Positions 6,152 through 62,962 of a stretch of 64,000 bases of DNA are shown one piece after another. The notes under the pieces were generated by a model. It was not told the origin of the DNA, did no database searches, and worked only from the letters and a program-made list of their open reading frames with translations. The position numbers and the translations under genes are program-made. Position 1 is the stretch's first letter. Every line of letters begins with the position of its first letter. This stretch comes from Cephalotus follicularis (taxonomy: Eukaryota > Streptophyta > Magnoliopsida > Oxalidales > Cephalotaceae), in NCBI GenBank assembly GCA_001972305.1, contig BDDD01002902.1, positions 62,001-126,000 on the forward strand, read 5' to 3'.

Positions 6152-6152
6152 A

Positions 6153-11754: not shown

Positions 11755-12030
11755 GTTGAAAGCGTCGACTGCCAAGAATAAGCGTCGACGGTTTATAAAG
11801 CGTCGACTGTCTATTTTAGAGCGTCGACAGTTTGCCTTGGTTATGCGGTGATATTCCTTAAGTGTCGACTACCTAAAAACGTCGACGCTTTTAAACGTTT
11901 TTGTCGATAGTTAAAGCCCATTTTCTTTGTTAATGCGTCTAACCGGCGATGCTTCGTAGTCTAAGCGGCAGCGCTTTAGGCTAAAGTGGCGACACTTACC
12001 GCTTAAGGTCCGACGCTTTAGGAATATTCC
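11755..12030 (+). repeat. GTCGAC palindrome array in the B2 LTR
   Basis: GCGTCGAC units start at 11762, 11782, 11800 and 11821, then continue in weaker form (GTGTCGACT, AACGTCGACGC, CGGCGATGC, GGCGACAC). Spacing is 18-21 bp. The array lies upstream of the TATA box, in the U3 position. Confidence 0.75.
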
Positions 12031-12199
12031 TCAAAAATGCCAGCATCTTTTGTCGTTTATCGCGTTAATAGTGTTAAAAACGGACGCGTGGCAAGCAACG
12101 GGTGGAAGGCGGTAAAAATTTTAACCGCCTTCAGTAAAAATTGCCACATGTCATTTTTTTAACGGAGAAGAATCACGTTAGGCAGCTGAAGACTCTCCC

Positions 12200-12207
12200 T
12201 ATAAATA
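12200..12207 (+). promoter_or_regulatory. TATA box of B2, in a palindrome
   Basis: TATAAATA is embedded in the near-palindrome CTCCCTATAAATAGGGAG (12195-12212). B3 has the same arrangement on its sense (minus) strand near 35340, as CTCCTATATATATGGGAG. Confidence 0.55.
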
Positions 12208-12239
12208 GGGAGATAACTTCGACAGATTTACAGCAAGAA

Positions 12240-12345
12240 GAGCATGAGAGAAAGAGAGAAAGAGGAGAGAAAGAGAAGAGAAAGAGAGAAAGAGGAGAGA
12301 AAGAGAAGAGAAAGAGAGAAAGAGGAGAAAAGAGAGAGGAAGTTC
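12240..12345 (+). repeat. GA-rich tandem tract in the B leader
   Basis: Repeats of a roughly 30-base unit built from GAGAAAGAGGAGA and AAGAGAAGAGA. It gives a Lys/Glu/Arg-only open frame that is not a protein gene. The matching CT-rich tract in B3 is at 35120-35290. Confidence 0.8.
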
Positions 12346-15300
12346 TGTTAAAATTACTTCAGTGTAGAAAAGAAGGGAAGGAAATTAAAGCTAGGTAAGG
12401 ATTCCTATTTTCTTAGTAAGGAAAAATCTTGTTTTTGTCAAAGTATTTTATTTAAATATTGTATTTTCTGATATTTTGTTATTGTTTTAATTACCAGTTG
12501 AAATTTATGAATTCGTTAAAATATTTACGTTAACTTTATTTACGAGTTTTAGCTTTCTAAATTCGTTGAGATATTTACTTTAAATGTTAATACGTTAATT
12601 TTTATCATGCTTTATGTATTCCGAAGTTCTGCCCATTTTTATATAATTATATTATACTATTATGGAAGTTATGGTTTTATCATTTCAAGTTATTGAGCTT
12701 GTTTTTTTTACGTTCTTTATTTTTCGTCATGAAAGTTATGATTTTATGATTTTACTGTTTTTCGTTGTTATATGTAAATTTAGTTTTACAAATGTTGTAC
12801 GAATTTATTTTATGAATGCTTTGAGCTGATCACTCAAATTATTGAAGAAAATGATTTATGAAAGGTGAAAATTAATGAACAGAGATGAACAACTACTGGA
12901 TTGTGATCCATGGAGGATTAATCTAGTAAAAGATTAATGTTATGAGTAGAGAGTGATCGCAGACATGCATGTGATGTAAGTTGGTGATCGGGGATGTGCA
13001 CCCTGCCCCGGTGACTGGTTCAATTGGGTTATTTAAATTTATACAACCCCTCAGTTATTTATGAAAAGTTTTGATTCAAGAAATCTGAAAGAAAATGAAT
13101 GTGATGATGTGTTTTATGAAGATGCTGGTTTTATAAATATTACCAAAAAAATATGTTTGAACAATATTTTATTACGAATATACTTACTGAGCTATTTGGA
13201 GCTCACTCTTTTCAATGTTTTTGTAAAATTTTAGGGGATGCCTGACCGTGCAAAAGTTTCAAGATTTAAAGGAACTTAATAAAGGAGTTTTAGAAGGAAT
13301 CTGTATTATAATATAATGTGTTGTATAAATTGATTTTGTTACATTAATGTTTTTCCGCTGTAAATTGTAATATAACCGCTTGCGTTTAAGCGTGACGATG
13401 TTAAGAAATGATTTCCTGTGACATATGGTAATATCAAATGTAAGTTAAAATTTAAAAATGTATGTATATTTTGGATTATGTAGCTTCAAATATGACATAG
13501 CTTAGAAATGATTGAATGATTTAATAGTCACACCCCCACGTAACGCACCTCGATTCCTTGAGCCTCCCTTTGAGCATATAGTGAACTCGGATTTGGGACG
13601 TTACACCTTTAACCTTAACCCTAACACCAAAAACCCTTAGGGTTTTCTAGGGTTTACACATGGAAAATCCCTGGTTTTGTTAGGGTTGCAATCCCTAGCC
13701 CAATACAAGAAATTTTCAACCCACACAATCAAAGAAGATTAAAGTAGAGAATTAGAAACATTTACCTAATTCTTTGCCCTCCTCCTTGGTATGCTCCCTC
13801 CACACTTTGATCCAAGCTTTATGTCTTCACAAAAGACCTTCCTCTACTCCATGGTAGCAACTTTAATGATGGCATGAAGTCTACAAGGTGTTTACCTAAA
13901 CTGATCTTCAAGATAAGTACAGATAGGTTCCATGGTGAAAGCAATCTCCACCTATAATTAATTTGGAGGGTAAAAGAAAGTTGTTTTGCTCTTTCCTCTT
14001 CAAGAGCATGAAGCCCAATCCATCTCCTCCCATGGAAGACATAGACACGACAAGAAGATGAATAAAGAAAAGAGAGAGCTCTACGGGTGAAAGAAAAAAT
14101 TTTAGAGAGAAAAACAAAGTCCATGTGTGTAAAGTAAGTCAAGCAGAATTTTATATCCTTTTCTTTTTCTCCAAGTCTTCTACTTACAAAAAATTTTTCT
14201 CTCTTCAATTTCACCTCATGGCCGGCCAAGTATAAGGCTAAATGAAGCCATAAAAATTCAGCCCAAAGTGTTTCAAAAACACACCTTTGAAAAGTCCACA
14301 AAATTGGGATAAGCATATTTACAATTGGGCTATTATGAAAAAACTTTGGACCAACCATGAAATAAGCCATATTAAGGCATAAATTCAGCCTAAATGGGAT
14401 GGTGAATCCCTAGCCCAATATTCTATAAGACCATAAGCTCTCTCCCCAAATAAATGCCCAAGTGCATTTGTTAGTGGTAACAAACTACTCTTTGCATGGA
14501 ACATTTCATTATGGTGATGCTTGAACTCATTTCAATGAAACGATATGTTCAGCAAATAAAAAGTTCACTAACAAAGTAACATCTTCCTTAGATGTTATCC
14601 TTTCACTAAATGACATGTCACTCGGCATATCAACCTATTCAAAAATAAGTCAGGACCCGAAAGCCCGGTTGGTTTCCAGTACAACGATATCTGGTACAAC
14701 CATCCTGATTGTCCTATCCTATAGCCCCGATGTGATCTCCAAATCACCCCCGGATCCATGTACACCACATCTATTAGTCATTAGCCAGATCAACCAGTGC
14801 TTTATTCTCATCATCGGCATATGTCTCATGTATCTCTCATCATCTCGACTCCGACCGCTGACTAGGGTTTGGATTAATGTCACCCCCATGTAAAACCATG
14901 ATAACTATAATTCTATGAACGCATTGAGACTATCGGAAGACATCCTAGGAAATCTCGTTTCCAATCTCCCAAGTGCTATACCGAGACTTCAAGTATTCAA
15001 CAGTCACATATGTTATATAGCCTATAACCTTCAACACAGGTGTGATGATCCCATCTTGCACACTCGCCCATACATCTCAATGTAGCTCCCACAAGGCCCA
15101 AAGACATCTCTTTTGCCAGCACGTGGCTAGTGCTGGGGAAGGCGAATATCAAAGCCAAGCGATTACTACACAATGCATGCCAGTCGCTCAGGTCTAATGA
15201 TACAATGCAAGCTACGACCTACTAGTCACCATAGACTTTACACTACCGAAACAAATAGGATTCCTATTGACAAAAGGTGTTGACTTTCCAAATAGGGTTC

Positions 15301-19773: not shown

Positions 19774-20075
19774 AGCTATGTCACACCCTGTTCATGAAAA
19801 CGCGACATTAAAGCGGTAAAGGCAATTAACATAAAATACAGCTCATGTAAAAACCATAAAATTAAAACTTTTAAACAAACTGTCAGTTGCGGAAGCATAA
19901 CAAGTTCGTAAGCTGGAACTCGTAACGTGCTGTAACGCCCGGGATTTTCGTTAAGGTGTAATATTGCATTTTTAAATGTAATTTTATATGTGGAATTAAT
20001 GAGAATTGTGTTTTCCCCTTTGGTGTGGTAAAAGTTGCAAGAAAAAGTGTGTTAGAGTGCTTTTGGTGCAGGGGG

Positions 20076-20207
20076 CAGCCGACTGCCACAGGGAGGCAGC
20101 CGACTGGACTCCCTTGGTGAAGGTGGCAGCCGGCTATTGTGAGGAAACAGCCGATTGTTTTGAGTGTCGGAAGAAACAGTCGACTGCCAAGTGAAGGCAG
20201 CCGACTG
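20076..20207 (+). repeat. CAGCCGACTG array, first block of the E LTR
   Basis: Six units start at 20076, 20097, 20127, 20148, 20177 and 20198. Intervals are 21 or 29-30 bp. Variants include CAGCCGGCTA and CAGTCGACTG. Confidence 0.85.
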
Positions 20208-20700
20208 CCAGGCGCCAGACGCCCACGTGTTTTCAGCCTTAAAATGTTAAAGTGAGAGTGTTTTGGCATTTGTGGCTTTTGGCAGAGAGAAGGGGGCCGA
20301 GTCTCCTTGATAAAAACGCAATTTCCTCTCCTCAATCTCCATCTCCTTTGTGATTCAAGTTTGTTCGAAGGTGAGTTTGAGAGTGAAAGTGTGTGTGTTG
20401 TGGAGATACGGAGCTTCGTGTCGAACCGTGGAAGGCTGCTGGACGCGTTTGGAGGTGCAAGGACCTCGGATCTAGGACTTAAAGAGGTGGATTGCAACTC
20501 CTAACTTGGAGTTCTAAGGTAGGGGAAAGCTATATTTGTGATTCAAGTCATTAATAATGATGTTATGGGTGAAATGCATATGTGATTTTGTGATAGAAGC
20601 CAGAATATGTGATGTGGTGATAGTGTTTTATGGTTGGATTGGTTTAAATATGGATTGAAGTGTGTGTTTTGCTGCTATTTTTGGGCACTGCCCGTAGGGG

Positions 20701-21170
20701 CAGTCGACTGTCAAAGGAGGACAGCCGACTGTCCAAGGCTAACAGTCAACTGTCCAGGGAGGACAGCCGACTGTCCAAGGAAAACAGCCGACTGGGCATT
20801 GGAACCAGTCGACTGGTTGTGCCTGGAATTGCAGGTTTCTTCCTATTGTTTGTGCAGCCGACTGCCAAGGAAGGCAGCCGACTGTGTGGTGGTCTAGCCG
20901 ACCGTTTTGGGTAACAGCCGACTGTCCACGTGTCACCCTACCAGGCCTGCTGGGACAGGTGGCAACAAGGAATGTGCTTTGGATTGGACCAGCCGACTGC
21001 CAAGGAGGGCAGCCGACTGCTATGTGAGGGACAGTCGACTGCCAAGGAGGGCAGCCGACTATTGGTATGGGACAGCCGACCGCCAAGGAGGGCAGCCGAC
21101 TGGTGGTCATGGGCAGCCAACTGCCAAGTGTGGGAAAACCGACTGTTGAAGGAGAACAGCCGACTGTCAG
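20701..21170 (+). repeat. CAGCCGACTG array, second block of the E LTR
   Basis: About 20 units. Starts at 20701, 20722, 20743, 20764, 20785 and 20806 are exactly 21 bp apart. Starts at 20855, 20875, 20895 and 20915 are exactly 20 bp apart. More follow from 20990 at 20-22 bp intervals. The linker is often CCAAGGAGGG. Most units contain GCCGAC, the core of the plant DRE/CRT element; some are GTCGAC or GTCAAC. Confidence 0.9.
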
Positions 21171-21372
21171 TGAGAAACGACTGACTGTTTGAGACCGCTT
21201 TGCATTGTGAGCATATGTGTGCATATTGTACCGTGTTAAAATGTATTTTGAGTTGGTAATTGAGGATTGTGAAACGTTTTACCCCTTTTTGGAAGTGCCA
21301 ATGTGATTTGCATAAATCATTACTTTATGTGAAATGTACGTTTTGAGATATATATATTCTCGAAAGATTGTG

Positions 21373-21606
21373 AAAATGGCTTCCAAAATATTGTGAAAAT
21401 GTGTTTGACTAATGGTTTACTAAAATCATTAGTGTTTAGAAAATGGTTTCCAAAATATTGTGAAAATGTGTTTGATTAATGGTTTATTAAAATCATTAGT
21501 GTTTGGAAAATGGTTTCCAAAAGGATTGTGAAAATGTGTTTGATTAATGGTTTATTAAAATCATTAGTGTTTGGAAAATGGTTTCCAAAAGGATTGTGAA
21601 AATGGC
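21373..21606 (+). repeat. 67-bp tandem repeat in the E LTR
   Basis: Units begin AAAATGGTTTCCAAAA at 21373, 21440, 21507 and 21575, at 67, 67 and 68 bp intervals. There are three full units and a partial one, nearly identical, so the duplication is recent. Confidence 0.85.
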
Positions 21607-22993
21607 TTTTGAGGGTTTGCGAAACTGTTATACAAAATATCTATTTTGCGGTATTTGAATGTAGTTCAAATAACCGGGTTTTACTGAAAGTGTATTCTTA
21701 CAAGTATTTGATACTTGAGTTTGAGAAAATGATCGTTATATATATATATTTTGACAAATATATATGTTGCAAGTATTTATATCTATAAATTACTTGAAAT
21801 GTTTAAGGAAAAATGTATTGTTGCAAGTATTTTATGAATCATAACTTACTTGGGAAATGAAGTGTTATATATATGTTTTGACAAATATATATATGTCGAA
21901 AGTATTTATCCTTTAACCGTTTTGGGAACGAGATGTTTTGATGAAGTTTTTATTTTATAAACTACTTGAGTGCATTTATGGGTGCTGTGTTTGCACCGTG
22001 ATTGTGACTGTGTTGAGTGTTGGTACTTAGCCGCCGTGCTAGTATCGTTATCGTGTACTGATTGATTGATTGTTGTTACTTAGCCGTCGTGCTAGTAACA
22101 TGGATGTTATTGTATTGATTGTGATTGAGTGTTGCCGCTAGCGGGGTAATGTTGGTACTTAGCCGTCGTGCTATTATCGTGAGTGTTGCCGTTAGCGGGG
22201 AAGTGTTGGTACTCGCCGCCGTGCTTGTATCGTAGTGAGTTCCGAGTGTTGTCCACGCCGTCGTGCCTGTGACGGGAACAATTGTTTGCTATTGAGTGAT
22301 TGATTGTCTGCCTTGACATGCCTGATTGTTGTCCTTTGGGACGTGGCTATTCGTTATTGTGTAGTGATGGGTCCTTAGAGGTCTGAGATGTGTTGGCCAT
22401 TGTGCCATTGTGATATTGTGAACCGTGTATAGTACGGATGTCCTGTGACATTGTGGCCTGTGACCGTGTGGTCGTGGCATATATATATATGTATATATAT
22501 GCATCGAGATATAGTATGTACTGCATCATTGTGCATTCATGTCATGACATGTTTTATCCTTGACCCTGGATCGCTTTTATGGTTTTGCCGAGTGAGGAAA
22601 AAGGCTAACCCCCTACAACTTCAGTGTGTTTCAGGTTGATGCAGCCGTGGGTTGATGCTGGGCTCCAAGGAGCAATATGGAGTTTATGTTGTTTACTTTT
22701 GAGGAAATGTTATGGAATATTGTATTAATTAATGGCTGTAATAAATGAATCGAGGTACTGATGGTTACTGTTCACGCTCCGTTTGAGGGCAGTTATCTGT
22801 TATGATGATATTTCCTGTTGTAGCATGTAGTATGGGATGCATGCTATGTTATGATTCAGCTTATTTTATATGCTTCCGCAGGTTGATAATGGATCTGGAA
22901 AGTTTTAATTTTATGGTGTTTTTGCATAAGTCGGATCTATATGTTAATTGCCACCACTTTATATGTTGTTTGTGAAACGGGGTGTGACAACAG

Positions 22994-24878: not shown

Positions 24879-25644
24879 ACTAAAGGCATCGATGTCTTTT
24901 CAAACAGTAGTCGTCTTCTACCTCACGACTCATCAAACAGTGGCCTCAATAACCCATAATCATGCATAATAACAGGTTTTCATGGCAAGAAACCAACATG
25001 CAGATACTCCAAACATATCTAGCATATCATGGCATCAAACCAGTAACAATATCATTCCAAGAATCATGCGTTTTTATACATTCAAAATCATAAACCGTGT
25101 ATAGATATCAAACTCGAATTTACAGTATGGCTTTCCCCTACCTCTGGCCTCAAGTTAGAAGCCAAAATTCCACCTCTTTTAGTATTCCATGAAGTCACTT
25201 GAGTCCCCAGGTACGGCTTGGAAGCTCCCTGGTTCGTCCTAGCAGTTGGTGTGCAAGCTCCAAGCTTCCTTGCTCAAAAATGGTGGCTCACACACTCACT
25301 GTTCCCTTTCTTTCCTTTCCTCTGGTGTTTTAAAACGAGAGAGATAAGTGGGGAGGGTTATTCTTATGCAGTTGGCTATCCCCCAACGTTCTTCTCCTGG
25401 CATTTAACAGGCCCCCTCGTGTTCTCTCCCACTTTCCAGGTTTCTGCATCTTTCTTTTGTATTCTTTAACCATTCTTTCTTTTGCAGGTTGCATGTGAGG
25501 ATCCCTTTGCATGTTCCATGTGAGGGCATGTTCTGAGCTTTCCTGGAAACATACCGACATGCTCAACACGTCACAAGGCACTTGAAAAGGCGTATGGTAA
25601 AGCCCCCAAGATCCCCTTGCATGTTACTTCTGCCAGCGAAAAAG

Positions 25645-25830
25645 CACGACAGGTGTTCTTTAAAAAGGCATCGACGTCTTTTATTTAGACGTCGATGTCT
25701 TTTTTCCTTTTGGGTAAGAAGGTGTCGATGCCTTCTCCCAAAGTCGACGTGCATGCCCACGCATTCACGTGTATTTCAATCCTCAAAGGCGTCGACGTCT
25801 TTACAAAGACGTCGATGTCTTTATCCCAAA
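25645..25830 (-). repeat. GTCGAC/GACGTC array in the D LTR
   Basis: Units such as GGCATCGACGTC, AGACGTCGATGTC, GGTGTCGATGCC, AAGTCGACGTG, GGCGTCGACGTC and AGACGTCGATG occupy the U3 position of D. Neighbouring units are about 20 bp apart. Confidence 0.75.
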
Positions 25831-25993
25831 ACAACGTCGTTTCAAGCTTTAACATACTCATTCCATTCCCAAGTCCATAATTAAGGTTTGCAAGCATCTC
25901 TTGAGTTCAAAAACTCAACATTCTCATAAAATCAAGTTTAAGATTACATCATAAATCGAAATGTTACATTCAGGGAAAATACCGGGCGTTACA

Positions 25994-36124: not shown

Positions 36125-36367
36125 AATTAACAGTAGCATATACAGCAACAATAGTAAAAGACAGTAGCAATTCAAGGATTCAACAAGGTAATTAGCATAC
36201 CATAGTCATTCATGTGTAACTCACATAAGGAGTGCATACGTTGTTTAATTCTTGAATGTAATTATATGAGGCCAGGATTTATTGTTCTAATCATCCCTAG
36301 GGAGGCCAGGTTAATTACATTCAAATTGAGGCCTAAAATAGGACCTATATCAGAAATTATCCCAGGA

Positions 36368-42353: not shown

Positions 42354-42441
42354 TCAGTTTCCTATATGGAATGACATAATCATTAGGAAACAACTCACTT
42401 AACTTCCGAGAAACTTATCCCAGCTAGCATATATGGAATAT

Positions 42442-42453
42442 GCTCTGATACCA
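42442..42453 (-). other. Primer-binding site of A1
   Basis: On the minus strand TGGTATCAGAGC, an exact match to the plant iMet tRNA 3' complement, four bases from the 5' LTR end. Confidence 0.95.
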
Positions 42454-42457
42454 TGCT

Positions 42458-45140: not shown

Positions 45141-45960
45141 AAACCGTCGACCCCAAAACTCAAGACCGCCTTCGCTTAGAGTAGAGATTTCAAATTCAAA
45201 CTTCCAACGGTCACATAAGTGTCGACGCGTTGAAGGACTCCGTTGAAGCTTTGCGCGCTGGAGATAACTACTGGCAGAGTTTTAATGCGCCGTCTTTGAA
45301 GCAACAAGCCCCAAGACATAACCAACGGATCTTTCACCTGAAAAATGGCTATAAACACAACATTTCTGTACATAATAAAGAGAGAAAGAGGATTACACAA
45401 GATCATACAAGAAACCAAAAAGCTACTTCAAGATCAATCAAGCACAAGAGCAAATCGCAAACTTTCATATCAAAACAAAAGCAACTTCAAGATCTATTTG
45501 TTTATTTTTGAGCTACAAATTTTTTGTAATAAAACCTTTGAAAGGTTGTCCAAGAAAACACAAATCATTCTTGTAACCTACACTTGTAAAGGGGAGTGAA
45601 CCCTAAGTGAGTGTGGGGAGTGAACCCAAAAGTGAGATTGGGGAGTGAACCCAAAAGTGAGATTGGGTAGGTAACCCATTGTGATTTAGGTCAATCACTA
45701 AAAGTGTAAGGTGTTATGATTTGCACCCGTAATCCTAAATCAAAGAAGGAAACTAGTGGAATCTCAAGGAGGTCCTTGAGAAAGTGGACGTAGGCACGAA
45801 TTTTGCCGAGCCACTATAAAATTGCGTTTGCATCTCTCTAACTCTCTCTTTACTCGCATTTCTTAAATTAATTAATTTATTTGTTTTTGATTTCATACTC
45901 GATTTGTGTTCATAATCTTAGTTTAATTTTAAAAAGTTCATTGATTTATTATATACTACA
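45141..45960 (+). mobile_element. SIRE-like copia 5' LTR, second part
   Basis: Resumes after A1 with AAACCGTCGACC, adding CGTCGAC words to the S array, then leader sequence with GTGAACCCAAAAGTGAGATTGG repeats (45595-45665). The end is taken at TATACTACA (45960), about 30 bases before the PBS, but it could be nearer 45990. Total S LTR length is then about 1.2 kb. Confidence 0.7.
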
Positions 45961-45991
45961 ATTCACCCTCCCCCCCTATAGTACATTCAAA

Positions 45992-46003
45992 TTGTATCAG
46001 AGC
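45992..46003 (+). other. Primer-binding site of the SIRE-like element, first copy
   Basis: TTGTATCAGAGC, one base from the iMet complement. A second copy, TGGTATCAGAGA, lies at 46471-46482 across the gap. Confidence 0.8.
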
Positions 46004-46430: not shown

Positions 46431-46533
46431 CCCCCCCCCCCCCCCCCCCCCCCTTTGTAGTATATTCAATTGGTATCAGAGAGGTAGACTTATAAATCTT
46501 AATTGCTAGAGCCTTTAACGATCTAGAATAACA

Positions 46534-48396
46534 ATGAACATGAACACCGGAGAGAGCCAAAACATCTCAAAACCTCCTTACTTTGATGCCAATAACTATA
46601 GCCATTGGAAGGCAAAAATAAACATTTTTATTCAATCTCTTGATTATAATTTGTGGGACCTCATTGTTGACGGTCCAAATCTTACTACTATTAGGAATGA
46701 AAATGGTGATGTTATTCCTAAACCTAGGAGTACCTATAATGATGATGATAGAATAAGAGCTCAAATTAATGCCAAAGCTAAACATATTATTATTTGTGCT
46801 ATAAACTTGAATGACTTTACTATAATTTCGACTTCCATTTCGGCTAAAGAAATGTGGGATAGACTTGAGGTCACCTATGAAGGGACTAATCAAGTCAAAA
46901 AAGCTAAGATTAGCATTCTAGTTCATGACTATGAAATATTCTCCATGAATGAAAATGAAGATATTAAATCTATGTTTTCTAGATTTACAAACATTATTAA
47001 TGCATTGCAAGCTTTGAATAAAACTTACTCTAATAGCGAAAAGGTGAGAAAATTTCTTAGGTACTTGCCAAAGTCGTGGATGCCGATGTTGACGGCAATC
47101 GAAGAAGCAAAGAACCTCAACATCCTTCCTTTGGAGGATCTTTTATGGTCACTAATGACCCACGAGGTTTCGATGCAAAAGAAAGACGATGATGAGGAGA
47201 AGGAGAAAAAGAAGAAAAAGGTGGTTGCTTTGAAGTCATCCACTTTTGAAGACTCCGACGATAATGATGATGATGATGACAATGAAGATCTTGCCCTCAT
47301 CACAACGAAGCTAAAAAGGATCCTAGCAAACAAAAGAAACTTTGGTGGAAAACCAAACAAAAAGTTCCAACAAAAGGGAGAGTCGAGCAAAAGAGAAGAA
47401 ATCATTTGTTTTGAGTGCAACAAGCCGAGGCACTACAAGAGCGATTTTCCCCGACTAAAGAAAAAGGAATTCTTGAAGAAGAAGAAAGCAATGGTCTCTA
47501 CTTGGGATGATAGCGATTAATCAAGCTCGGATGAAGACACAAGTGAACAAGTAGCTCAATTGGCTTTGATGGCCATCGAGGAGGAAGTGGAAGAAGAAAA
47601 CGATGAGGTAACTTACGATGAACTTGTCTTAGTTGTAGAAAAATATAGATCTATAATTTCTTCCTTAAAGAAAAAGTTCAAGACTTTAGCAAATGGAAAT
47701 GAGGAACTAAAATCAATTAATTTGGCTAAGGAAGATAACTCAAATGAAATTGAAGTAGATCTCTTAGAAAATGAAGTAACTTTTTTAGAAAAGGAAAATA
47801 TAAATCTTAAGGAAGAGATAGATGCTTTAAAGAAAACTTTTTCAAAGTTTTCTAATAGTAGTGAAAAGCTTGAAAATCTTCTTGGTATGAAAAGGTGTGC
47901 ATTTGATAAGGCCGGACAAGGATATGAAGAAATGAACAATGTCAAGCTTTATCAAAATTTCTTTGGAAGAAAAGAAAGAATAGAAAAAGGAAAGGTTGAA
48001 AAAACTCATAATAAAAAGAAAATTGTAAAGATTTCTTGTGATTATTGTAGTAAGATTGGACATACATCTTTTTCTTGCTTTCATAAGAGAAATGCCATGT
48101 TTAAGAAAAATGTGAATAATTCTTGTAATTTTTGTGGCAAACATGGACATGTATCTTCCTCATGCTATCATAAGAAAAATGCTATGAACAAGAAAAAGAT
48201 AAATATTTCGTGTGATCATTGTGGTAAAAATGGAGATACATCATCATATTGTTTTCATAAAAGAAACATCATGCATAAAACAAAAATAAATGTGACTAGT
48301 AATAGTTGTGGTAAAAATGGCCATGTTACTACTTCATGCTTTTACAAGAAAAACATTTTCAATGATTCAAACTTTACTAGAATAAAGAAAAGTTAG
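46534..48396 (+). pseudogene. Gag of the SIRE-like copia, with extra zinc knuckles
   Basis: Capsid/nucleocapsid protein. Starts MNMNTGESQNISKPPYFDA, then the UBN2/gag core (YSHWKAKINIFI, AKEMWDRLEVTYEGTNQVK, SMFSRFTNIINALQ, KFLRYLPKSWMPMLTAIEEAK). A Lys/Asp-rich linker and a damaged knuckle CFECNKPRHYKSDFP follow. TAA at 47518 interrupts it, but the same frame goes on: an acidic stretch, a long coiled coil (about 47620-47880), then four knuckle-like repeats, CDYCSKIGHTSFSC, CNFCGKHGHVSSSC, CDHCGKNGDTSSYC and a last one that has lost its first Cys. They are spaced about 29 residues. The frame ends at 48396. One stop in about 1.86 kb makes it the best-kept part of this element. Confidence 0.92.
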
Positions 48397-49070
48397 GTTC
48401 CTAAAGGAACCATTGTGACTAACCCCAAGGGACCCAAAATTAGTTGGGTACCTCAAACAAAAACTTGAATTTATTTTTGTAGGTGTGCTTGAAGGCACTA
48501 TCCAAGAAGAGGCAATGGTACTTGGATAGTGGGTGCTCCAAGCATATGACGGGTGACAAAAGCCTCTTTGTCAACTTCGAATCAATGGAAGGTGGAGATG
48601 TAACCTTTGGACACGATGCAAAAGGAAATATTAAAGTCTTTGACTCCATAGGCAACAATCATACTTCTATTCATAATGTTTTATATGTGGATGGACTCAA
48701 ACACTATCTCTTGAGCATAAGTTAATTATGTGACAAGGATTGTAGAGTCACTTTTGAAAAAGATGTTTGTAAACTAATAGACATCAACAATAATCAAACT
48801 AGATTCATTGGATATAGACATGGGAATGTATATGTGGTAGATATAAATGACTTGCAAAATGTTAAATGTCTAGTATCTATAAATGAAGATAGTTGGCTAT
48901 GGCATAGGAGACTAGGTCATGTAGGTATGTCAGCTATTTCAAACTTTTAAAGCATGAACTAGTTAAGGGCCTTCCGAAACTTAACTTCGAAAAGAATAAA
49001 ATTTGTGGCGCGTGTTAATGTGGAAAACAAACTAGGGCATCTTTTAAGAGCAAAGACATAGTTTCTACAG
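48397..49070 (+). pseudogene. Copia protease and gag-pre-integrase remnant
   Basis: After a frame change, WYLDSGCSKHMTGD (about 48522-48560) is the copia aspartic protease active site with an intact DSG. NVLYVDGLKHYLLSIS then a stop (48723), and later WLWHRRLGHVGMSAIS and CGKQTRASFKSKDIVST, give the zinc-binding pre-integrase part. At 49070 it runs straight into RT, so the whole catalytic integrase core is missing. Confidence 0.9.
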
Positions 49071-50472
49071 CTAGGTACTAAATGGATTTTTCGAAATAAA
49101 GTATATGATCAAGGAATAATAATTAGGAACAAAGCTAGGCTGGTTGCTAGGGATATTCCTAAGAAGTGGAAATTGACTTTGATGAATCATATGCTCCCGT
49201 AGCTAGACTAGAATCTATACGTATGTTACTTGCATATGCATATTTTAAGGATTTCACTCTTTTTCAAATGGATGTTAAAAGTGCATTCTTAAATGGTGTA
49301 ATAAAGGAGGAAGTTTACGTTGAACAACCTCCCGGTTTTATAGATCCACATTTTCAAAATCACGTTTTTGAACTTTCTAAAGCTTTGTATGGTATGAAAA
49401 AAGCTCCTAGAGCTTGGTATGAAAAATTAAGTGGTTATTTACTTGAAAATGGTTTTAAAAGAGGAACAATCGATATTACTCTCTTTACAAAAACTTTTAA
49501 TAAAGGAATTTTTATTGTCCAAATTTATGTTGATGATATCATTTTCGGATCTACTAATGAAAAGTTGGGCAAGAATTTTGCTAACATTATGCAGGATAAG
49601 TTTGAAATGAGCATGATGGGAGAGCTCAACTATTTCCTAGGACTTCAAGTTAAGTAAAGGAAGGATGGGATTTTGATAAACCAATCCAAGTACGTCAAGG
49701 ACCTACTAAAGAGGTTTGGATTGGAAAGCGCTAAAAAGAGTAAGACTCCGATGAGCACAACTACTAAACTAGATAAAGACGAGGAAGGTAAGCCTATCGA
49801 CCAAAACTTATATAGAAGTATGATAGGATCTTTGCTTTATTTAATGGCTAGTAGGCCGGATATCGTGTTTAGTATGTATTTATGTGCTAGATTTCAAGCA
49901 TGCCCTAAGGAATCTCACTTGCATGCAATAAAACGAATATTTAAAAATCTAGCGTATACAACTTCCCTAGGACTTTGGTATCCTAGGAACTCATCTTTCG
50001 ACTTGCACACATACTCCAATGCTGACTTCAGAGGTTATAAAGCCGATAGAAAAAGCACTAGTGGCACATGCCAATTCTTAGGTAATATGCTCATGTCTTG
50101 GTTTAGCAAGAAGCAAAACTCAGTAGCACTTTCTACTACCGAAGCTGAGTATATTGCCGCTGGAAGTTGTTGTGCACAAATAATGTGGATGAAACAAAAA
50201 CTTCTTGATTATGGATTTAAATTTGAAAAAGTGCCAATTATGTGTGACAACACTAGCACAATCCGTTTAGGGAAAAAATCTCGTACACCATTCTAGGACC
50301 AAACATATTGATATTAGGTATCATTTTATAAAAGACCATATTGAGAAATGTGATGTTGAATTATTTTTCGTACCGACTCAAGAACAAGTCACGAACATTT
50401 TCACAAAACCATTAGACGAACAAACCTTCTCAAAATTTAGATTGGAATTAGGTTTATGTGAAATTGAATGAT
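49071..50472 (+). pseudogene. Copia reverse transcriptase and RNase H (SIRE-like)
   Basis: RT begins GTKWIFRNKVYDQG (49074). After a frameshift near 49165 it continues [40 protein letters not shown] and [14 protein letters not shown]. The catalytic site is [11 protein letters not shown] (about 49527), intact. A stop at 49655 follows GLQVK. RNase H: RSMIGSLLYLMASRPDI, DRKSTSGTCQFLG, SWFSKKQNSVALSTTEAEY and CDNTSTIRLGK. After a frameshift at 50290 come RTKHIDIRYHFIKDH and TNIFTKPLDEQTFSKF, ending LCEIE at 50472. It is non-functional because of three breaks and the missing integrase. Confidence 0.93.
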
Positions 50473-50902
50473 TTATATGTTTACATGCTTGTATGTTTTT
50501 TTCTTGAAATGACTATATGTTGATTGTTGCATCATGTGCATTCATGCATTCGCGTTATCGATAAATCGGCAGAAAAATAGGGCAAAGCGCCGATGCTAGG
50601 AAAGAAAGAGTCAGCGCTTAAAACTGCATTTAGGAATAGAGTTTTGCAAAATATGCAAAGCGTTGACGCCTGAATTAAAAGCGTCAGCACTTTAACACTA
50701 AAATTAGGGCTTGAAATAGACTTTTCAAACAAAGCGACGCCGCTTTGAGTAAAAGTGTCGATGCTTTAGTGGGATTATAAAATAGATTCCCTCATCTATT
50801 AGCGCAAAATTTACAACCCGAACTTACAAAAACTTCTTCTATGGCGATTTCATCATAAATTACTGCCGAATATCGTTTCCAAACCAGAACCAATCATAAA
50901 AA
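50473..50902 (+). other. Spacer between pol and the extra ORF, with palindrome array
   Basis: No coding. From 50585 to 50770 it carries AAAGCGCCGATGC, GTCAGCGCTTA, AAAGCGTTGACGC, AAGCGTCAGCAC, AAAGCGACGCCGCTTT and AGTGTCGATGCTTT. These match the array type of the S LTR and are unusual in an internal region. AATTACTGCCGAA then the ATG of the next ORF follow. Confidence 0.6.
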
Positions 50903-52157
50903 ATGCCTACAAGTAAGCAAACCGAGGTGGGGGAAGGCTCAAGAACAAAAAAATAAGCATCTTGTGGAAAAGAAGAAGAGAAGAATTGCTTGACCCACCA
51001 TCACCACATGAGATTCCACTAGTAGTAAGGTACCATGAGGCTTATTTTAACAGAAAAATACTAGTGGGAAAGACTTTGGATTTTGATTTTTGCAATAGAG
51101 AAGGTTTCCCCATTATAGGATGACTAGAAACTCAAGGTTTAACCCCTTTATTTAGCATAAATCTGCCCTATTATCCTGAGCTTATCAAAGAGTTTTATGT
51201 TAGGATCCTACCTAGCTCTAGAGTAGATTTAAACAAAACTGTTAAAGATATGGAGATAGGATTTAGCTGCTCAACTCTAGCCATTATATTAAAAATTCCA
51301 AATGAAGGTGCTAGAGGTTGGAACCAAAGAAACTGGATTATTAATAATGATTTTGACAAAGAAGACTGTGTGAGGATGTTATTTGGTGATAATGCAAACT
51401 ATATGCAAAGGATGTACACTAGGAATCTCAATTTTCATCATAGGTTCCTACACTGAGCCATTGCCACACACGTACTACCTAAGGCCGGTGGATTTGATGA
51501 GGTAACCCACATGGAGGCATACACCATGTACCATCTAATCACGAGAAAAAGAATCAATGTGCCCAACCCAATTATCCACCATATGCTAGCTATACAAGGT
51601 AGAGAAAATTCTAGGCTAGCTTATAGTAACATAATAACCAAAATCCTTATGCATTTTGGAGTTGACTTGAGTGGAGAGCTGCATCACTCACTCCAAAGTG
51701 CAGATAAGTTAGCAAGGGGACTCTAGGTAGAATGGGATTTAAGAAGCATAAGAGGCTAGTCACTTGGATCCCTAGAGAAGAGGATTCAAATAGAATGATT
51801 GAAGACGAGGAAGGTGAGGAAATGGGAGAAGAATCTCAAGGAGAAGCTGTAAATGAGCCTCAAGTCTATCCCACACAAAATATCAATCGGCCGAGAACCC
51901 AAATTAAAGAACTCTTGGAAGCGAACAAAGGAATACAGCAAGAGGTCAAAGTCATAAAGCTCGATGTTCAAACCATCAAGAGAAGGCAAAAGAGAATGGC
52001 AAAACAGTTTGCGGAGAAAGGATTGGCTGGCGACGATAGACTTATCACATCATCCTCGAGTGAAGAAAACTGTGGCAACCCAAGAGAAGATGCTGCTACC
52101 GATGATTTGGAGGGAGATTTGGATGGAGATAACAAAGATACTCCCATGGATGATTGA
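50903..52157 (+). pseudogene. Extra ORF after pol, putative plant transposon protein-like (env position)
   Basis: Begins MPTSKQTEVGEGSR and is soon broken. Through shifting frames it reads YHEAYFNRKILVGKTLDFDF, PYYPELIKEFYVRILPSSRV, IGFSCSTLAIILKIPN, THVLPKAGGFDEVTHMEAY, VPNPIIHHMLAIQGR and ITKILMHFGVDLSGE. This pattern (an xLVKEFY-like motif, a small-molecule-like middle, then a helical end) matches what I know of the Transposase_32 / putative plant transposon protein family. The last frame (51732-52157) is acidic with a coiled coil (IKELLEANKGIQQEVKVIK). SIRE elements often carry an env-like ORF in this place, but no signal peptide or membrane segment is evident. Its function is unknown. 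Confidence 0.7.
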
Positions 52158-53794: not shown

Positions 53795-53929
53795 AGTTGT
53801 AACCGCAATTTCAATTCCTGTATTTTGTACCCAACGATGAATAAAATATACTTTTTGAGATGTTATGTTGGTTACGTTTTTTAATAGATCGAAGTTGGAA
53901 TAAATTCTTAGATGGAAAACTAAAGAAAC

Positions 53930-54050
53930 CGACGCCTAACACCTTACCGTCGACGGTTTGAGCCCTGAAACGTGTACAAATGCGCAGTTGAAGGCCGAGT
54001 TATGATGCACAAATCACCGACGTCAGAGAGAAAACCGTCGAAGCTTTGCG
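53930..54050 (+). repeat. GTCGAC array, U3 side of the A2 5' LTR
   Basis: ACCGACGCCTAA, ACCGTCGACGGTTT, ACCGACGTCAGAG and ACCGTCGAAGCTTT. In the 3' LTR the same sites at 60640-60760 read CCGCCGACACC, CCGTCGACGCTTT, CCGCCGATGC and CCGTCGACGCTTT, which are closer to the palindrome. Confidence 0.7.
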
Positions 54051-54969
54051 TATTGTCAGGAATGTGATACACGCCTATTAGAACAGAGCAGTGGCACTGA
54101 ATGGATTCCATGCGAGCTAAGTGTCCTATAAACGTGTCAATACACACCAGAAGCCTTCACCAGCTGGGTAACATGAAAGGATAGAACCTTGCATGTGATC
54201 TGAACCTGCAACCTGTAAAACACAGCAGAAAAAGGTAAGAGAAAATAAAGAGAGAATGTATGCATGAGGGAGAGAGAAATGTACATTAAAAGTTAAACAA
54301 ACTGACGAAATTAAGACACCAGTTGATCCTTATATCAACTGTGTCAGATTGAATGTGAGTGTTAGAAAACACTGAGGGTAGAGGAGAACTTGCTGAAGAA
54401 TTGTTGGAGCTTGCATTGAGGATTTGCAGTGTTCAAGAGATTTGGAAGCTTTGATCTTTTTCCTGGTAAGTACCTAATCCGAATCCGTTGTCATGGTTAT
54501 TAGGATGATAATTAAGTTACTGAATGTAGGTATAATAACCACTATCAACCAGGTTTAAGAGTTAACATGTTGAATTAAGGTAGGAAGGATAAATGGTTCT
54601 ATGAATTGATACTAAGAACTAATAATGATAAGCTATGGTTCAAGTTATAGGTTGTTACCATGATTAGACAATAGAATAAACTTACTGACATCAATATCTA
54701 AACCTATAACATGCACTTGTTCAGGCTAATTTCTGCTGAGATTGAGAGTTTGAGTTGTTGAAGAGCATTGGGCTTTAAAGAGAGAGGTCAATCCAATTTG
54801 ACTTCGGGATAGCAATTGAGGTAGGGGTTTTGACATGTTTTTGAACATATAACATGTATAATGTGTAGTGATGGTTAATACTTGATTGCATGTTGAAATG
54901 GACTGAGATTGAGTTGAATTTATGCAACCCTAGTTTTGATATTGCTCCTAGAATTCGTAAGAACGCCAG

Positions 54970-55110
54970 AAGCGTCGACGCTTAAGTTAAGACCGTCGAT
55001 GCTTTAGTGTGGAAAACGCCTGTTAAGGCTTATAATGTTGACGCTTAAGCTTTGATCTTGCGTGTAGTGTCAACGCTTAGACAACAACCGTCGACGCTTA
55101 CAAAGAAACT
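54970..55110 (+). repeat. GTCGAC array, leader side of the A2 5' LTR
   Basis: AAGCGTCGACGCTT, ACCGTCGATGCTTT (21 bp later), AATGTTGACGCTT, AGTGTCAACGCTT, ACCGTCGACGCTT and ACTGTCAGTGCTTT. It recurs at 61679-61835. A1 has CAGTCGACTG-type units at the equivalent place. Confidence 0.8.
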
Positions 55111-55775
55111 GTCAGTGCTTTAGAACAGTAAGTGTAGAAATGTGTTAATCGATTGATTGAATGGATTGTAATTGTAATTATCCTTGAACTGCTATATTGT
55201 AGCTGTCATTACAGTTATTTAATGAAATTACAACTGTTACATATATATCCAAGGATTTTACCAACTTAATGCTTCGAGCATAAATAATGATTTTTAACAA
55301 CGGATTTCATACAGGAAAGCTTATTGTATACAATTGATGTCATTTCATTTAAACTGTCATGCATATTTACGTTTATAGATTCAATTATCATGCATTACCT
55401 TCCTACTTAGCCAAGTGAGGACAACGGCTAACCCCCAACAATTTTAGATTAAGCAAGGGCGTTCGGAAGGTGCTGCTGAAGCTTTTGGAGAGCTTCTTTT
55501 CTGCTTAAGGTTGTTACCTTTATGTCGTTTTGTTTTGTAATGAACGGTTCGTACTCCGCGTTGTTGTTTTACTTTCCTTATGTAAAAGGACAATTGTTGG
55601 ATTTTACATGCACGTAGTATGAGCTGCGTGCGGATGACTTTTATTTTATAATTTGGCTTATGGAATGCTTCCGCTTATATAAATGAAATGTTGAATGGAA
55701 TGTTGGATTATTATTAATTTCTGATATCACCACATATTTTGTCTAAATGTATTGGAATAATGGGGTGTGACAGCA

Positions 55776-58800: not shown

Positions 58801-60461
58801 TTTCCCAGAAGGAGCTCAACATGAGAAAGACGAGATGGATGGAATTCTTTAATGATTACAGCTGCAACATTCAATACCACCCAGGGAAGGCGAATGTAGT
58901 GGCGGATGCGCTGAGTCGCAAGGCCATGATTGCTGGAGCAATGGTTTCACAGTGGAAGCTATTGGAGGAATTTCAGAGATGGAATCTATTCATGGTTTCC
59001 TGTGGAGCTATTGTGGCAAATCTGAGAGCACAACCAGAACTTCTGGAGCATATTCTGACTGCTCAGTACAGTGATTCTGAGTTATGGAGTATTCATGAGA
59101 ACCTAGACACTGATTCTGAGTTCTCCATTCATACTGATGACATACTGAGGTTCCGAGGAAGGATACGTGTTCCGAATGACGAGGGCATCAGAAATGAACT
59201 ACTACAACAAGGTCACAAGTCAAAATACAGTGTTCACCCGGGAAGTTCCAAGATCTTGCATGACCTGAAAATGAACTACTGGTGGAGTGGTATGAAAAGA
59301 GAGATTGTTGAATATGAAGCAAGATGTTTGACCTGTCAGAGAGTGAAGGCTGAACATCAGAAACCTGCGGGACTGCTACAATCGCTACCAGTGGTTGAAT
59401 GGAAATGGGAGCATGTGACCATGGACTTCATTGTCAGGACTACTGAGGTCAAGAAATCAACATGAAGCAGTGTGGGTAGTAGTGGACAGACTCACTAAGT
59501 CTGCTCACTTTCTTCCAATGAACATGACGTATTCTATCGAAAAGCTCGATTGTATATCCGAGAAATAGTGAGATTGCATGGGGTGCCGGTCAATATTGTA
59601 TGTGACCGAGATGCTATATTTACTTCAAGGTTCTGGAAGAAGTTCCAAGCAGCAATGGGAACAACTTTGAACTTCAGCACTACATTCCACCCACAGACCG
59701 ACGGACAGTCCGAGCGTACCATTCAGACTCTGGAGGATATGCTACGGGCATGCATGATTGATTTTGCTTGGAGTTGGGAGGATCATCTGGCACTGATTGA
59801 GTTCTCCTACGACAACAGTTTTCACACCAGCATTGGAATGGCTCCCTATGAAGCCTTGTATGGAAGAAAGTGCATATCGCCTATCTGCTGGGATGAAGTA
59901 TGTGGGAGACAAGTGCTAGGACCGGACTTGGTACAAGAGACGACTGATAAAGTGGAAATAATCAAGAAGAGACTGCTAGCTGCACAAAGTCGGCAGAAGA
60001 GTTACGCCGATAGCAAGAGGACAAAGCTAGAATTCGAGAAGGGGGATCATGTTTTCCTGAAGATCTCTCCTTTGAAAGAGATACAGCATTTTGGCCTCAA
60101 GGGGAAGTTGGCTCCAAGGTATATTGGACCTTATGAAATACTGAAAAGAGTGGGGGATATGGCATATCAGATTCCACTACCGCCTAGTTTGTCGGATGTT
60201 CATAATGTATTTCATGTCTCCATGTTACGGAAATATGTGCCCGACCCATCTCGTATATTGAGCTACGACCCTGGATTCATCAGTCCTACATTGTCTTATG
60301 AAGAGAGGCCAACAAGGATAGTGGATCGAATGGAGAAGGTGCTGAGGAACAAGACTATTCCTATTGTAAAAGTGTTGTGGCATTTTCACGGAGTAGATGA
60401 AGCTACGTGGGAGCGTGAGGACGAAATGATGGAGACATTTCCCCACTTGTTCGGAATGTAA
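55876..60461 (+). pseudogene. Gag-Pol of gypsy A2 (Tekay/Del-like), disabled
   Basis: The same family as A1, in the opposite orientation. Gag starts MDLHRG. Its core is FGRDLERFMGHNPSTF and KLNFSVYRLWGEATYWW. Knuckles CTFCGRRNHDETEC and CLRCGSQEHMLNSC are both intact. Protease DPGATHSF is near 57150. RT has [19 protein letters not shown] and [12 protein letters not shown] (about 58140). RNase H has [16 protein letters not shown] and VADALSRKA. Integrase has [30 protein letters not shown] and [20 protein letters not shown]. The chromodomain-like end has IVKVLWHFHGVDEATWE. Stops lie at about 55894, 56038, 56482, 56712, 56823, 57370, 57709, 58486 and 58729, with frameshifts near 56640, 58800 and 59445-59545. 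It is near full length but cannot make its enzymes unaided. Confidence 0.95.
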
Positions 60462-60486
60462 GGGCTAAATTCGAGGACGAATTTTC

Positions 60487-60502
60487 TTTAAGGAGGGGGG
60501 AA
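60487..60502 (+). other. Polypurine tract of A2
   Basis: TTTAAGGAGGGGGGAA directly before LTR start TGTAATAACC, 26 bases after the pol stop. Confidence 0.9.
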
Positions 60503-62962
60503 TGTAATAACCAAATTTCAATTCATGTGAATAAAATATACTTTTTGAGATTTTATGTTGGTTACCTTTTTTAATAGAACGAAGTTGGAATAAATTCTTA
60601 GATGGAAAACTAAAGAAATAATTTCTGGTGCCAAACCGCCGACACCTAACTCCTTACCGTCGACGCTTTGAGCCCTGACACGTGTACAAACGCGCAGTTG
60701 AAGGCTGAGTTATGACGCACAAACCGCCGATGCTAGAGAGAAAACCGTCGACGCTTTGCACAGTGTCAGGAATGTGATACACGCCTGTTAGAACAGAGCA
60801 GTGACGCCAAATGGATTCCATGTGAGCTAAGTATCCTGTAAATGTGTCAATACACACCAAAAGCCTTCACCAGCTGGGTAACATGCAAGGATAGAACCTT
60901 ACATGTGATCTGAACCTGCAACCTGCGAAACACAGCAGAAAAAGGTAAGAGAAAATAAAGAGAGAATACATGCATGAGGGAGAGAGAAATGTACATTAAA
61001 AGTTAAACAAATTAACAAAATTAAGACACTAGATGAGCCTTATATCAATTGTGTGAGATTGAATGGTCGTGTTAGAAATCATTGAGGGTAGAGGAGAACT
61101 TGCTCAAGAATTGTTGGAGCTTGCATTGAGGATTTGGAGTGTTCAAGAGTTTTGGAAGCTTTGATCTTTTTCCTGGTAAGTACCTAATCCGAATCCGTTG
61201 TCATGGTTATTAGGATGATAATTAAGTTACTGAATCTAGGTATAATAACCACTGTCAACCAGGTTTAAGAGTTAACATGTTGAATTGAGATAGGAATGAT
61301 AAATGGTTCTATGAATTGAAACTAAGAACTAATAGTGATAAGCTATGGTTCAAGTTATAGGTTGTTACCATGATTCGACAACAGAATAAACTTACTGACA
61401 TCAATATATAAACCTATAACATGCAATTGTTCAGGCTAATTTCTGCTGAGATTGAGAGTTTGAGTTGTTGAAGAGCATTGGGCTTTAAAGAGAGAGGTCA
61501 ATCCAATTTGACTTCGGGATAGCAATTGAGGTAGGGGTTTTGAAATGTTTTTGAACATATAACATGTATAATGTGTAGTGATGGTTAATACTTGATTGCA
61601 TGTTGAAATGGACTGAGATTGAGTTGAATTTATGCATCCCCTGTTTTGCTATTGCTCCTTGAATTTGTAAGAACGCCAGAAGCGTCGACGCTTAAGTTAA
61701 GACCGTCGATGATTTAGTGTGGAAAACGCCTGTTAAGGCTTATAATGTCGACGCGTAAGCTTTGATCTTGCGTGTAGTGTCAACGCTTAGACAACAACCG
61801 TCGACGCTTACAAAGAAACTGTCAGTGCTTTAGAACAGTAAGTGTAGAAATGTGTTAATCGATTGATTGAATGGATTGTTCTTGTAATTATCCTTGAACT
61901 GCTATATTGTAGCTGTCATTACTGTTATTTAATGAAATTACAACTGTTACATATATATCCAAGGATTTTACCAACTTAATGCTTCGAGCATAAATAATGA
62001 TTTTTAACAACGGATTTCATACAGGAAAGCTTATTGTATACAATTGATATATTCCTCTACAAGAGGTACTGTATTGTTCTGTTCTCCAAGAGAACCACTG
62101 ACTGAACTGTTATGTTTTCTACGAATCAAAGCTACCGTTTTATTGCATATTATAGATATATGTAATATTTCCACTGAATTGATTGAATTGATTGTCTATG
62201 CTATTGCCATTAGTCGAGTGATAGGAGACATCACTGGCTACGGAGGTGGTCCTATGTGCCAGGAGTTGGCTAGAGTATCCACCTAAACTGTCTGCAATGC
62301 AGATCTTGATTGTTAAACTGCCCGCTAATGCAGGTAGTAACTGACCTGATCTATCATCTTCGGAGTGAAGGGTTATAGATAGGTGGTGCACAGTTGGTGC
62401 TAGGAGTTAGCGACATGAAACACCCAGTGAGTGTTGAATTGATTGTACCCTTGTGCGGTATTCTTGCATATGGATTGTCTATGGCCACTTGGCATGATTG
62501 CGTATATATTGGAATACTATGTATATATGTCATTTCATTTAAATTGTCATGCATATTTACATTTATAGATTCAATTATCATGCATTACCTTCCTACTTAG
62601 CCAAGTGGGGACAACGGCTAACCCCCTACAATTTCAAATTAAGCAAGGGCGTTCGGAAGGTTCTGCTGAAGCTTTTGGAGAGCTTCTTCTCTGCTTAAGG
62701 TTGTTACCTTTATGTCGTTTTGTTTTGTAATGAACGGTTCCCACTCCGTGTTGTTGTTTTACTTTCCTTATGTGAAAGGACAATTGTTTGATTGTACATG
62801 CACGTATCATGGGCTGCGTGAGGATGACTTTTATTTTATAATCCGGCTTATGGAATGCTTCCGCTTATACAAATGAAATGTTGAATGGAATGCTGGATTA
62901 TTATTAATTTTTGATATCACCACATATGTTGTCTAAATGTAATGGAATAACGGGGTGTGACA
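60503..62962 (+). mobile_element. Gypsy A2 3' LTR
   Basis: 2460 bp from TGTAATAACC to ACGGGGTGTGACA, then CGTGC (62963-62967), matching 53790-53794. It includes the ~480 bases absent from the 5' LTR. These are homologous to 43000-43300 of A1. Arrays are at 60640-60760 and 61679-61835. Confidence 0.92.

Follow-up and report, generated by a model that had tools for sequence, protein, structure and literature searches.

Why do retrotransposons of two superfamilies carry the same short palindrome, repeated at a nearly regular step, in their long terminal repeats (LTRs)? The question is raised by a window of 64,000 nucleotides from Cephalotus follicularis (assembly GCA_001972305.1, contig BDDD01002902.1, positions 62,001 to 126,000, forward strand), in which arrays of words centred on GTCGAC are found in LTRs classed as Ty3/gypsy-type, with partly related ends (A1, A2, B1, B2, D and E; D is classed as gypsy solely by LTR similarity), and in a Sirevirus-like Ty1/copia element (S). 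A reading made from the letters alone, called here the sequence-only reading, had pointed out these arrays, their step of about 20 bp and their position mostly upstream of a TATA box or in the leader, had assigned them to several unrelated families, and knew of no named system of the kind. LTR regulatory regions are usually regarded as private to a family; here the long words, the core, the spacing, the positions and two of the flank types of the arrays are common to copia and gypsy.

The window contains 37 exact copies of GTCGAC (4.0–4.9 expected from order-1 and order-2 Markov models, 14.0 from order 3), and the observed-to-expected ratio of 8.8 (37 vs 4.2) is the highest among the 64 palindromic 6-mers. 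The arrays are real in the ranges named beforehand, which hold 35 of the 37 copies, far above expectation; the other two, at 23724 and 38271, fall within reading frames of gag and of the integrase region. Neighbouring copies within 100 bp form 16 pairs, where 0.02–0.27 are expected. The single LTRs carry 2–6 exact words vs 0.07–0.22 in dinucleotide shuffles, and the observed count was reached by none of 300 shuffles in eight of the nine LTR copies and by one of 300 in D. The core ranks first among palindromes in seven of the nine, and nine control stretches show 0 or 1 exact copy each, without enrichment. In the case of E, previously counted as a GTCGAC array, the array itself stands, with some GTCGAC (4 on the sense strand) and mostly GCCGAC (16).

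The flanks around the core fall into at least three types, or dialects. Dialect 1, found in A1 and E, resembles GGCAGYCGACTGCC; dialect 2, found in A2, B1, B2 and S, resembles AAAGCGTCGACGCTTT, its GTCGACGCTTT half being the best conserved; and dialect D resembles AAAGACRTCGACGYCTTT. The arrays and the elements that carry them are, along the window:

11458..13950 (+): B1 LTR-like stretch, starting TGTAATGAC, far end unmapped; TATA box CTCCCTATAAATAG at LTR position 742.
11755..12030 (-): B1 array, dialect 2 words (GTCGACGCTTT), the majority inverted relative to the LTR.
19931..22989 (+): E LTR, 3,059 bp, TGTAACGCCCGG ... GGGGTGTGACA; a gypsy gag open reading frame (ORF) follows at 23173-24417.
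20076..20212 (+): E array 1, dialect 1 (CAGCCGACTG / CAGTCGACTG).
20701..21170 (+): E array 2, dialect 1; 13 of its 16 steps measure 20-22 bp.
24879..25993 (-): fragment of the D LTR, beginning at 25993 in the sense direction and truncated by the N run 24854-24878; its start and that of E are homologous.
24885..24903 (-): lone D word, a weak word-model match at D position 1101.
25645..25830 (-): D array, dialect D (AAAGACRTCGACGYCTTT).
32484..32785 (+): S 5' LTR, part 1, with dialect 2 array.
32786..45140 (-): A1 gypsy element inside the S array; 5' LTR 45140-42458, 3' LTR 37762-36125 + 33632-32786.
33633..36124 (-): B2 LTR-like insertion in the A1 3' LTR, starting TGTAATGACC, far end approximate.
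35570..35890 (-): B2 array, dialect 2; TATA box at LTR position 778.
36368..36490 (-): A1 3' LTR array 2, longer than the 5' LTR copy by about two units (41 bp).
37514..37600 (-): A1 3' LTR array 1.
43787..43862 (-): A1 5' LTR array 2, dialect 1, steps 20-21 bp.
44890..44978 (-): A1 5' LTR array 1, dialect 1.
45146..45995 (+), end approximate: S 5' LTR, part 2, with the remaining array; TATA box CTATAAAC at LTR position ~504; TGGTATCAGAG, resembling a primer-binding site, beyond.
46519..50471 (+): S copia gag-pol, with Retrotran_gag_2 and RVT_2 (PF14223, PF07727), a second gag ORF and part of RNase H.
50580..50770 (+): S linker array between pol and ORF3, three dialect 2 word pairs with 21 bp inside each pair.
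50774..50784 (+): TATA-like box GATTATAAAATAG after the linker array.
51124..52157 (+): S ORF3, broken; PF20167 Transposase_32 at 2.7e-6 and 1e-8, both under the Pfam curated cut-off.
53796..55772 (+): A2 5' LTR, internally shortened; arrays 53930-54050 and 54970-55110, dialect 2.
60503..62962 (+): A2 3' LTR; arrays 60640-60760 and 61679-61835, dialect 2.

Several assignments of the sequence-only reading change with this map. A1 inserted into the S array, flanked by a target duplication AAACC, so the ranges 32523-32780 and 45145-45260, taken before as separate arrays, are the halves of one S array; the A1 3' LTR is split in turn by B2. The stretch 50585-50770, also taken as an LTR array, is located between pol and ORF3. 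For D the range 25645-25830 holds, and the word near 24885 had been missed; it may belong to the margin of a second D array that the N run truncates. The unrelatedness of the families stands for copia vs gypsy, where no BLAST match was seen beyond the array words, and goes too far on the gypsy side: the internal regions of A1 (minus strand) and A2 (plus strand) are 87.6% identical, and the LTR starts of D and E agree in 73% over 86 bp. B1 and B2 match in several pieces at 74–78% in a self-comparison of the window, with the B1 array mostly opposite in orientation to that of B2. The A1 and A2 LTRs run from TGTAATAACC to CGGGGTGTGACA (fuller copies ~2.5–2.7 kb), and their domains (RVP_2, RVT_1 in A2, H2C2 integrase, SH3_Tf2-1) assign them to Ty3/gypsy, so they are not Sirevirus hosts; we term them chromovirus-like because of a weak chromodomain match in A1 (E 0.009, under the Pfam cut-off). 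The gag ORF downstream of E matches PF03732 at 2.7e-19. Among listed protein matches at E 1e-20 or better for the gag at 23191-24414, 11 of 13 belong to Cephalotus follicularis, as do all 14 listed for the extra ORF at 51457-51723. In S, the CCHC-like repeats of the second gag ORF and the RNase H part were recognised by eye, and the third piece of ORF3 gave no Pfam match.

The spacing of the words is regular. Steps of 20–22 bp between neighbours make up 47 of 73, with 7.5 expected from random placement at equal span and number, which bears out the step of about 20 bp read earlier. The word positions behind these 73 steps were hand-picked, with some overlapping or isolated matches dropped (e.g. 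E 994, B2 388 and 489); an unpicked scan gives 19–22 bp in 37 of 64 steps, both A1 LTRs counted. The units of E are tandem repeats and its steps are therefore not independent; without its two arrays 31 of 52 steps measure 20–22 bp. The spacers between array words of S and B2 are only 3–7 bp. The two A1 LTRs (36340-36490 vs 43760-43880) are about two units (41 bp) apart, which indicates that units are gained or lost within a single element. A TATA box follows the array in B1, B2, S and the S linker, and to this extent the position upstream of a TATA box is confirmed.

In respect to the dialects, a model of the 24-bp dialect 2 word was trained on 21 gypsy words only (B1, B2, A2). The copia S LTR yields 11 matches to it (expected 0.93) and the S linker before ORF3 yields 6 (expected 0.48), counts reached in none of 200 shuffles; the linker array is recognised by this extended word model only, not by plain GTCGAC. 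The same model gives 6 matches in D (0.70 expected, 0/200), 4 in A1 (1.48 expected, 13/200) and 5 in E (1.97 expected, 7/200). A dialect 1 model built from A1 words gives 26 matches in E (1.29 expected, 0/200), one each in D and the S LTR and none in B2 or the S linker. The flanks were also compared blind to the core, for one-mismatch cores of S and its linker against 101 control cores: four of the seven rank 0–1 and two rank 5–6, while the remaining one lies outside the array and ranks 80. Dialect D occurs beside copia-like sequence at two genome loci. In L016 an LTR-like stretch on the minus strand resembles the S LTR, with matches of 70% across 186 bp and 87.5% across 48 bp, and carries dialect D words in runs with 20–22 bp steps, as in gypsy D; L014, with copia markers together with dialect D, is probably a second case. 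From S, L016 and L014, dialects 2 and D each stand beside both copia and gypsy LTR sequence, and dialect 1 was seen in gypsy only (A1 and E in the window; L012 and L028 in the genome).

Sister LTRs can differ in their words. The A1 and A2 LTRs agree in 79–85% over most of their last third and in only 40–46% in the array windows (all columns counted); their arrays lie between the same LTR anchors, yet belong to different dialects. The pair D and E repeats this pattern in less similar sequence, with a common LTR start, equal array placement and differing words.

The arrays extend well beyond the window. In the assembly (1,577,397,061 bases, 9,746 contigs) AAAGCGTCGACGCTTT has 3,552 sites vs 5 for its reversal. 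An unselected sample of 20 stretches of 10 kb, drawn at a constant position from contigs at even intervals (188,253 bases other than N), has GTCGAC first of the 64 palindromes (64 vs 17.5 expected) and GACGTC second (56 vs 17.9), with 20 arrays in 9 of the 20 stretches by one criterion and 10 arrays in 6 by another; strong dialect 2 matches in these stretches are 19–21 bp apart in 17 of 29 steps of up to 60 bp. The arrays are nearly pure in dialect: of 94 words, 91 have the dialect that prevails in their own array (mean 61 and maximum 72 in 5,000 shuffles). The 39 arrays of the wider set count as 37, since L009 and L010 overlap; L002–L011 and L032–L037 were picked for a dialect 2 word, so their dialect is uninformative on frequency, and several genome dialect 2 arrays have no family assignment. 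An independent S-like copy, L017 (reverse transcriptase 79%, ORF3 60–67% identical to S), repeats the linker array: between pol and ORF3, at 3887-3982, are two word pairs at 21 bp (5 matches vs 0.75 expected, 1/100 random), with a TATA box ~60 bp beyond. L018 is a B-type element with gypsy gag-pol. Two unplaced loci, L005 (118-1506) and L009 (1506-2839), each show two dialect 2 arrays ~1.2 kb apart, a layout like that of A1 and A2.

Two simple explanations are rejected at this point. Chance or base composition fails against the shuffles, the control stretches and the genome-wide reversed-pattern control, all of which show the word density to exceed what composition gives. Restriction of the array to one recombinant repeat fails since arrays occur in several LTR families of the window and more in the genome.

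We propose that host DNA-binding proteins use the arrays as promoter-associated platforms, with sites phased at two turns of the helix, a reading to which we give an even chance of being right. The arrays resemble cooperative protein-binding sites in being palindromic, with a two-turn step, often placed before a promoter, tolerant of either block orientation and conserved in the core, with flanks that go by family. The palindromic sites of 14–18 bp would stand about two helical turns (21 bp) apart, and with such phasing bound dimers would lie on one face of the DNA. The readers would probably be host nuclear proteins, the simpler choice because elements of two superfamilies use the words, and the core may have been kept in copia and gypsy because both exploit the same proteins. 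Binding would drive transcription of the element or shield it from silencing, in S also that of the extra ORF; each flank dialect may suit a different paralogue, and multiplication of units by tandem duplication would leave each array nearly pure. If a common factor reads the arrays, joint activation of unrelated elements would be explained.

A CBF/DREB-type AP2 factor is one candidate reader only. RYCGAC is listed as the barley CBF site CBFHV in the available text of two papers (PMC4482647, PMC7570135), and the consulted part of a third describes DREB/CBF motifs in stress-activated plant transposable elements (PMC11656987). The motif covers the GTCGAC, GCCGAC and ATCGAC cores and is present in all nine LTR copies (3–21 on the sense strand, as raw counts) and once, antisense, in the S linker; a 6-bp match is insufficient to identify the factor. 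A wider form of the proposal, which we regard as distinctly doubtful, is a genome-wide cis code across superfamilies, in which a few diversified trans-acting proteins would each read one GTCGAC flank dialect on 21-bp arrays. Copia and gypsy elements would change dialect, and with it the reader, whatever their ancestry, much as in an arms race or a competition for niches around a single activator or anti-silencing system, possibly one encoded by retrotransposons.

Several observations weigh against the platform reading. The earlier claim on TATA boxes does not extend to A1, A2 and E, in which no canonical TATA was found between arrays 1 and 2; array 2 lies well within these LTRs, perhaps downstream of the transcription start. 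The top palindrome of D is GACGTC, with GTCGAC second, and in E GTCGAC is third. The S linker (50585-50770) has no exact GTCGAC, its two one-mismatch words are not significant, and the core ranks 48th of 64 there. The dialects are not wholly separate, since the dialect 1 model finds 4 matches in A2 (1.27 expected, 5/200 shuffles) and 4 in B1 (1.02 expected, 1/200). Scored by flanks for dialect 2, no more than 3 of 10 A1 cores and 2 of 25 E cores come within the top 6 of 101; the flanks of E and most of A1 are thus unlike dialect 2, D is intermediate, and one common protein is not demanded. In respect to the controls, 1-11400 has 11 dialect 2 matches vs 6.2 expected (8/200), and 1-11400 and 26000-32400 hold one high-scoring word each (2/200). 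One-mismatch words also cluster outside the arrays (10601-10801, 41301-41551, 52551-52901), and such clusters in the controls 1-11400 and 52200-53790 are seldom seen in shuffles (3/60 and 1/60).

The palindromes might instead act as hairpins in RNA or single-stranded DNA, with folded transcripts giving rise to small RNAs or a silencing mark. For 13 array pieces, set against 40 shuffles and one to three comparison pieces, the minimum-energy z-scores range from 0.0 to -7.8, mostly below those of other pieces of the same LTRs, which speaks for folding and against the platforms, and maize Sirevirus palindrome regions attract small RNAs, as the available parts of two papers report (PMC5311732, PMC10760457). 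The two A2 arrays, however, score 0.0 and -1.3, no better than the rest of the A2 LTR, and since many arrays, though not those of A2, have raised RNA structure, the hairpins may be a side effect. They would demand neither 21-bp steps nor one dialect across superfamilies, and arrays upstream of a TATA box lie outside the 5' part of the transcript. We consider this explanation unlikely.

Less likely still is that arrays move between families, from copia to gypsy too, by recombination or template switching and without selection for a shared factor. The unlike dialects of the sister LTRs A1 and A2 would suit such movement, and the copia–gypsy alignments include spacers (S vs B2 81.6% over 38 bp; L016 vs D 92% over 39 bp). 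These matches do not exceed 50 bp, or about two units, and end inside the array; as the words occupy 14–18 of every 21 bp, word constraint alone could yield them. Two transfers would also be needed where two arrays of the same dialect stand 1 kb apart in one LTR.

The reader could also be encoded by the retrotransposons themselves, for instance by ORF3, as an anti-silencing protein or activator of the VANC kind, with other families as parasites that evolve its sites. An array stands directly before ORF3 in two S-like elements, and VANC proteins offer a precedent on short-motif arrays (PMC5735166, as far as its available text goes). A DNA-binding role of PF20167 found no support in this analysis, and none of 24 ORF pieces scanned with Pfam was an extra gypsy ORF; we judge this possibility very unlikely. 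Descent of the shared arrays as eroded copies from one ancestral LTR is hardly credible: pairs among A1, A2, B, D and E do share LTR starts or ends, with array 1 near the start in each, but copia S and L016 are hard to explain in this way, which already makes descent an unlikely account of the copia–gypsy sharing, and the dialects of A1 and A2 differ though other parts of their LTRs are still 79–85% identical.

Some further features of the window were observed. A stretch of 123–125 bp with the primer-binding region and gag start of S occurs twice at 90% identity, to either side of a 342-base N run (45966-46567) and beside poly-C, probably an assembly artefact. A 311-bp duplication of 100% identity (28306-28616 and 29082-29392), either recent or an assembly error, lies beside an ORF that resembles a copia RNase H end by eye and gave no Pfam match. 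Tandem repeats comprise 41-bp units at 16052-16259 and 67-bp units at 21372-21604, the latter within the E LTR. An inverted repeat at 17787-17974 (90.5% over 190 columns) is possibly a small palindromic element, and a repeat in four copies (1803-2975, 7288-8639, 14437-15752, 62973-63897; 70–81% identity) has no exact GTCGAC. A spurious-ORF probe through the E array had no match in the protein sets of other plants, and a viral-contig pattern scan gave one match, on a contig bacterial- or phage-looking by eye, which was taken as chance.

Among known systems, the BII boxes of Tnt1 and the 13-bp repeats of Tto1 are LTR cis elements used by host transcription factors. To our knowledge these, like the elements of ONSEN, are each described inside their own family and not as a core common to superfamilies. 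VANDAL elements are DNA transposons. The heat-shock elements of ONSEN are LTR cis elements for host factors in the available text of PMC11656987, and all three cases share with the present arrays the use of repeated or defined LTR cis elements. In Arabidopsis, as the accessible part of PMC5735166 describes, VANC proteins of VANDAL act on dense arrays of a short motif spread by tandem duplication; the arrays resemble those found here in being dense, non-coding, spread in tandem and divided into subfamily motif types, and differ in a non-palindromic motif (YAGTATTAY), a known element-encoded reader and restriction of the dense arrays to a family. A VANC-like trait here is a non-coding motif array with gain and loss of units, as in the 3' vs 5' LTR of A1.

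The closest system is that of the Sireviruses, and on the copia side the earlier statement that no named system is known fails. Palindromic repeated motifs were described in 13 Sireviruses in 2010 (Bousios, PMC2829016, cited here from its available parts); they cluster ahead of the TATA box in the upper LTR half, and before ENV in ENV-bearing elements. The grape consensus, CGGTCGACCG, is centred on GTCGAC. The motifs are reported there as absent from classic Ty1/copia and described as Sirevirus-specific among the Ty1/copia elements compared, and their clusters are CpG-rich and form CpG islands (PMC2829016). S shares with Sireviruses a Ty1/copia gag-pol that is followed by an additional ORF, its ORF3 match to PF20167 being under the cut-off. 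Its arrays are likewise palindromic, with at least eight copies (11 matches in the LTR and 6 before ORF3, several imperfect), and lie at positions 44-378 of an LTR of ~1152 bp, ahead of the TATA box at 504. S-like elements have further copies before ORF3 (the S linker and L017), ORF3 being assumed to be the ENV-like counterpart. CpG observed/expected is 1.13 in the S array and 0.51 elsewhere in its LTR, and GC content is 48% and 36%, as plain ratios and not by the island criteria of PMC2829016. Unlike the Sirevirus motif, that of S lacks the CGG-CCG signature, with a consensus around the core of CCGTCGACGC; in the same source the Tnd-1 motif likewise lacks it. Multiple polypurine tracts of the form AGGGGGAG ahead of the 3' LTR mark Sireviruses; such tracts were not found in the window, nor was a 3' LTR of S. 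The maize Sirevirus palindromes, as far as the available accounts go, are clustered in the regulatory part of the LTR and fast-evolving, as here, and use another word, CACCGGACNNNGTCCGGTG.

The open-licence literature searched gave no description of gypsy arrays, shared dialects or dialect switching between sisters, and no occurrence of six longer array words. In general, the S copia arrays look like a further member of the Sirevirus kind. Going by the available parts of PMC2829016, the arrays here differ from that kind in occurring also in Ty3/gypsy LTRs, in having three dialects per genome and in keeping a regular 21-bp step. What appears new is the presence of GTCGAC arrays in gypsy LTRs, the dialects common to copia and gypsy, and the switching of dialect between sister LTRs, by which a feature held to be specific to Sireviruses is extended to Ty3/gypsy.

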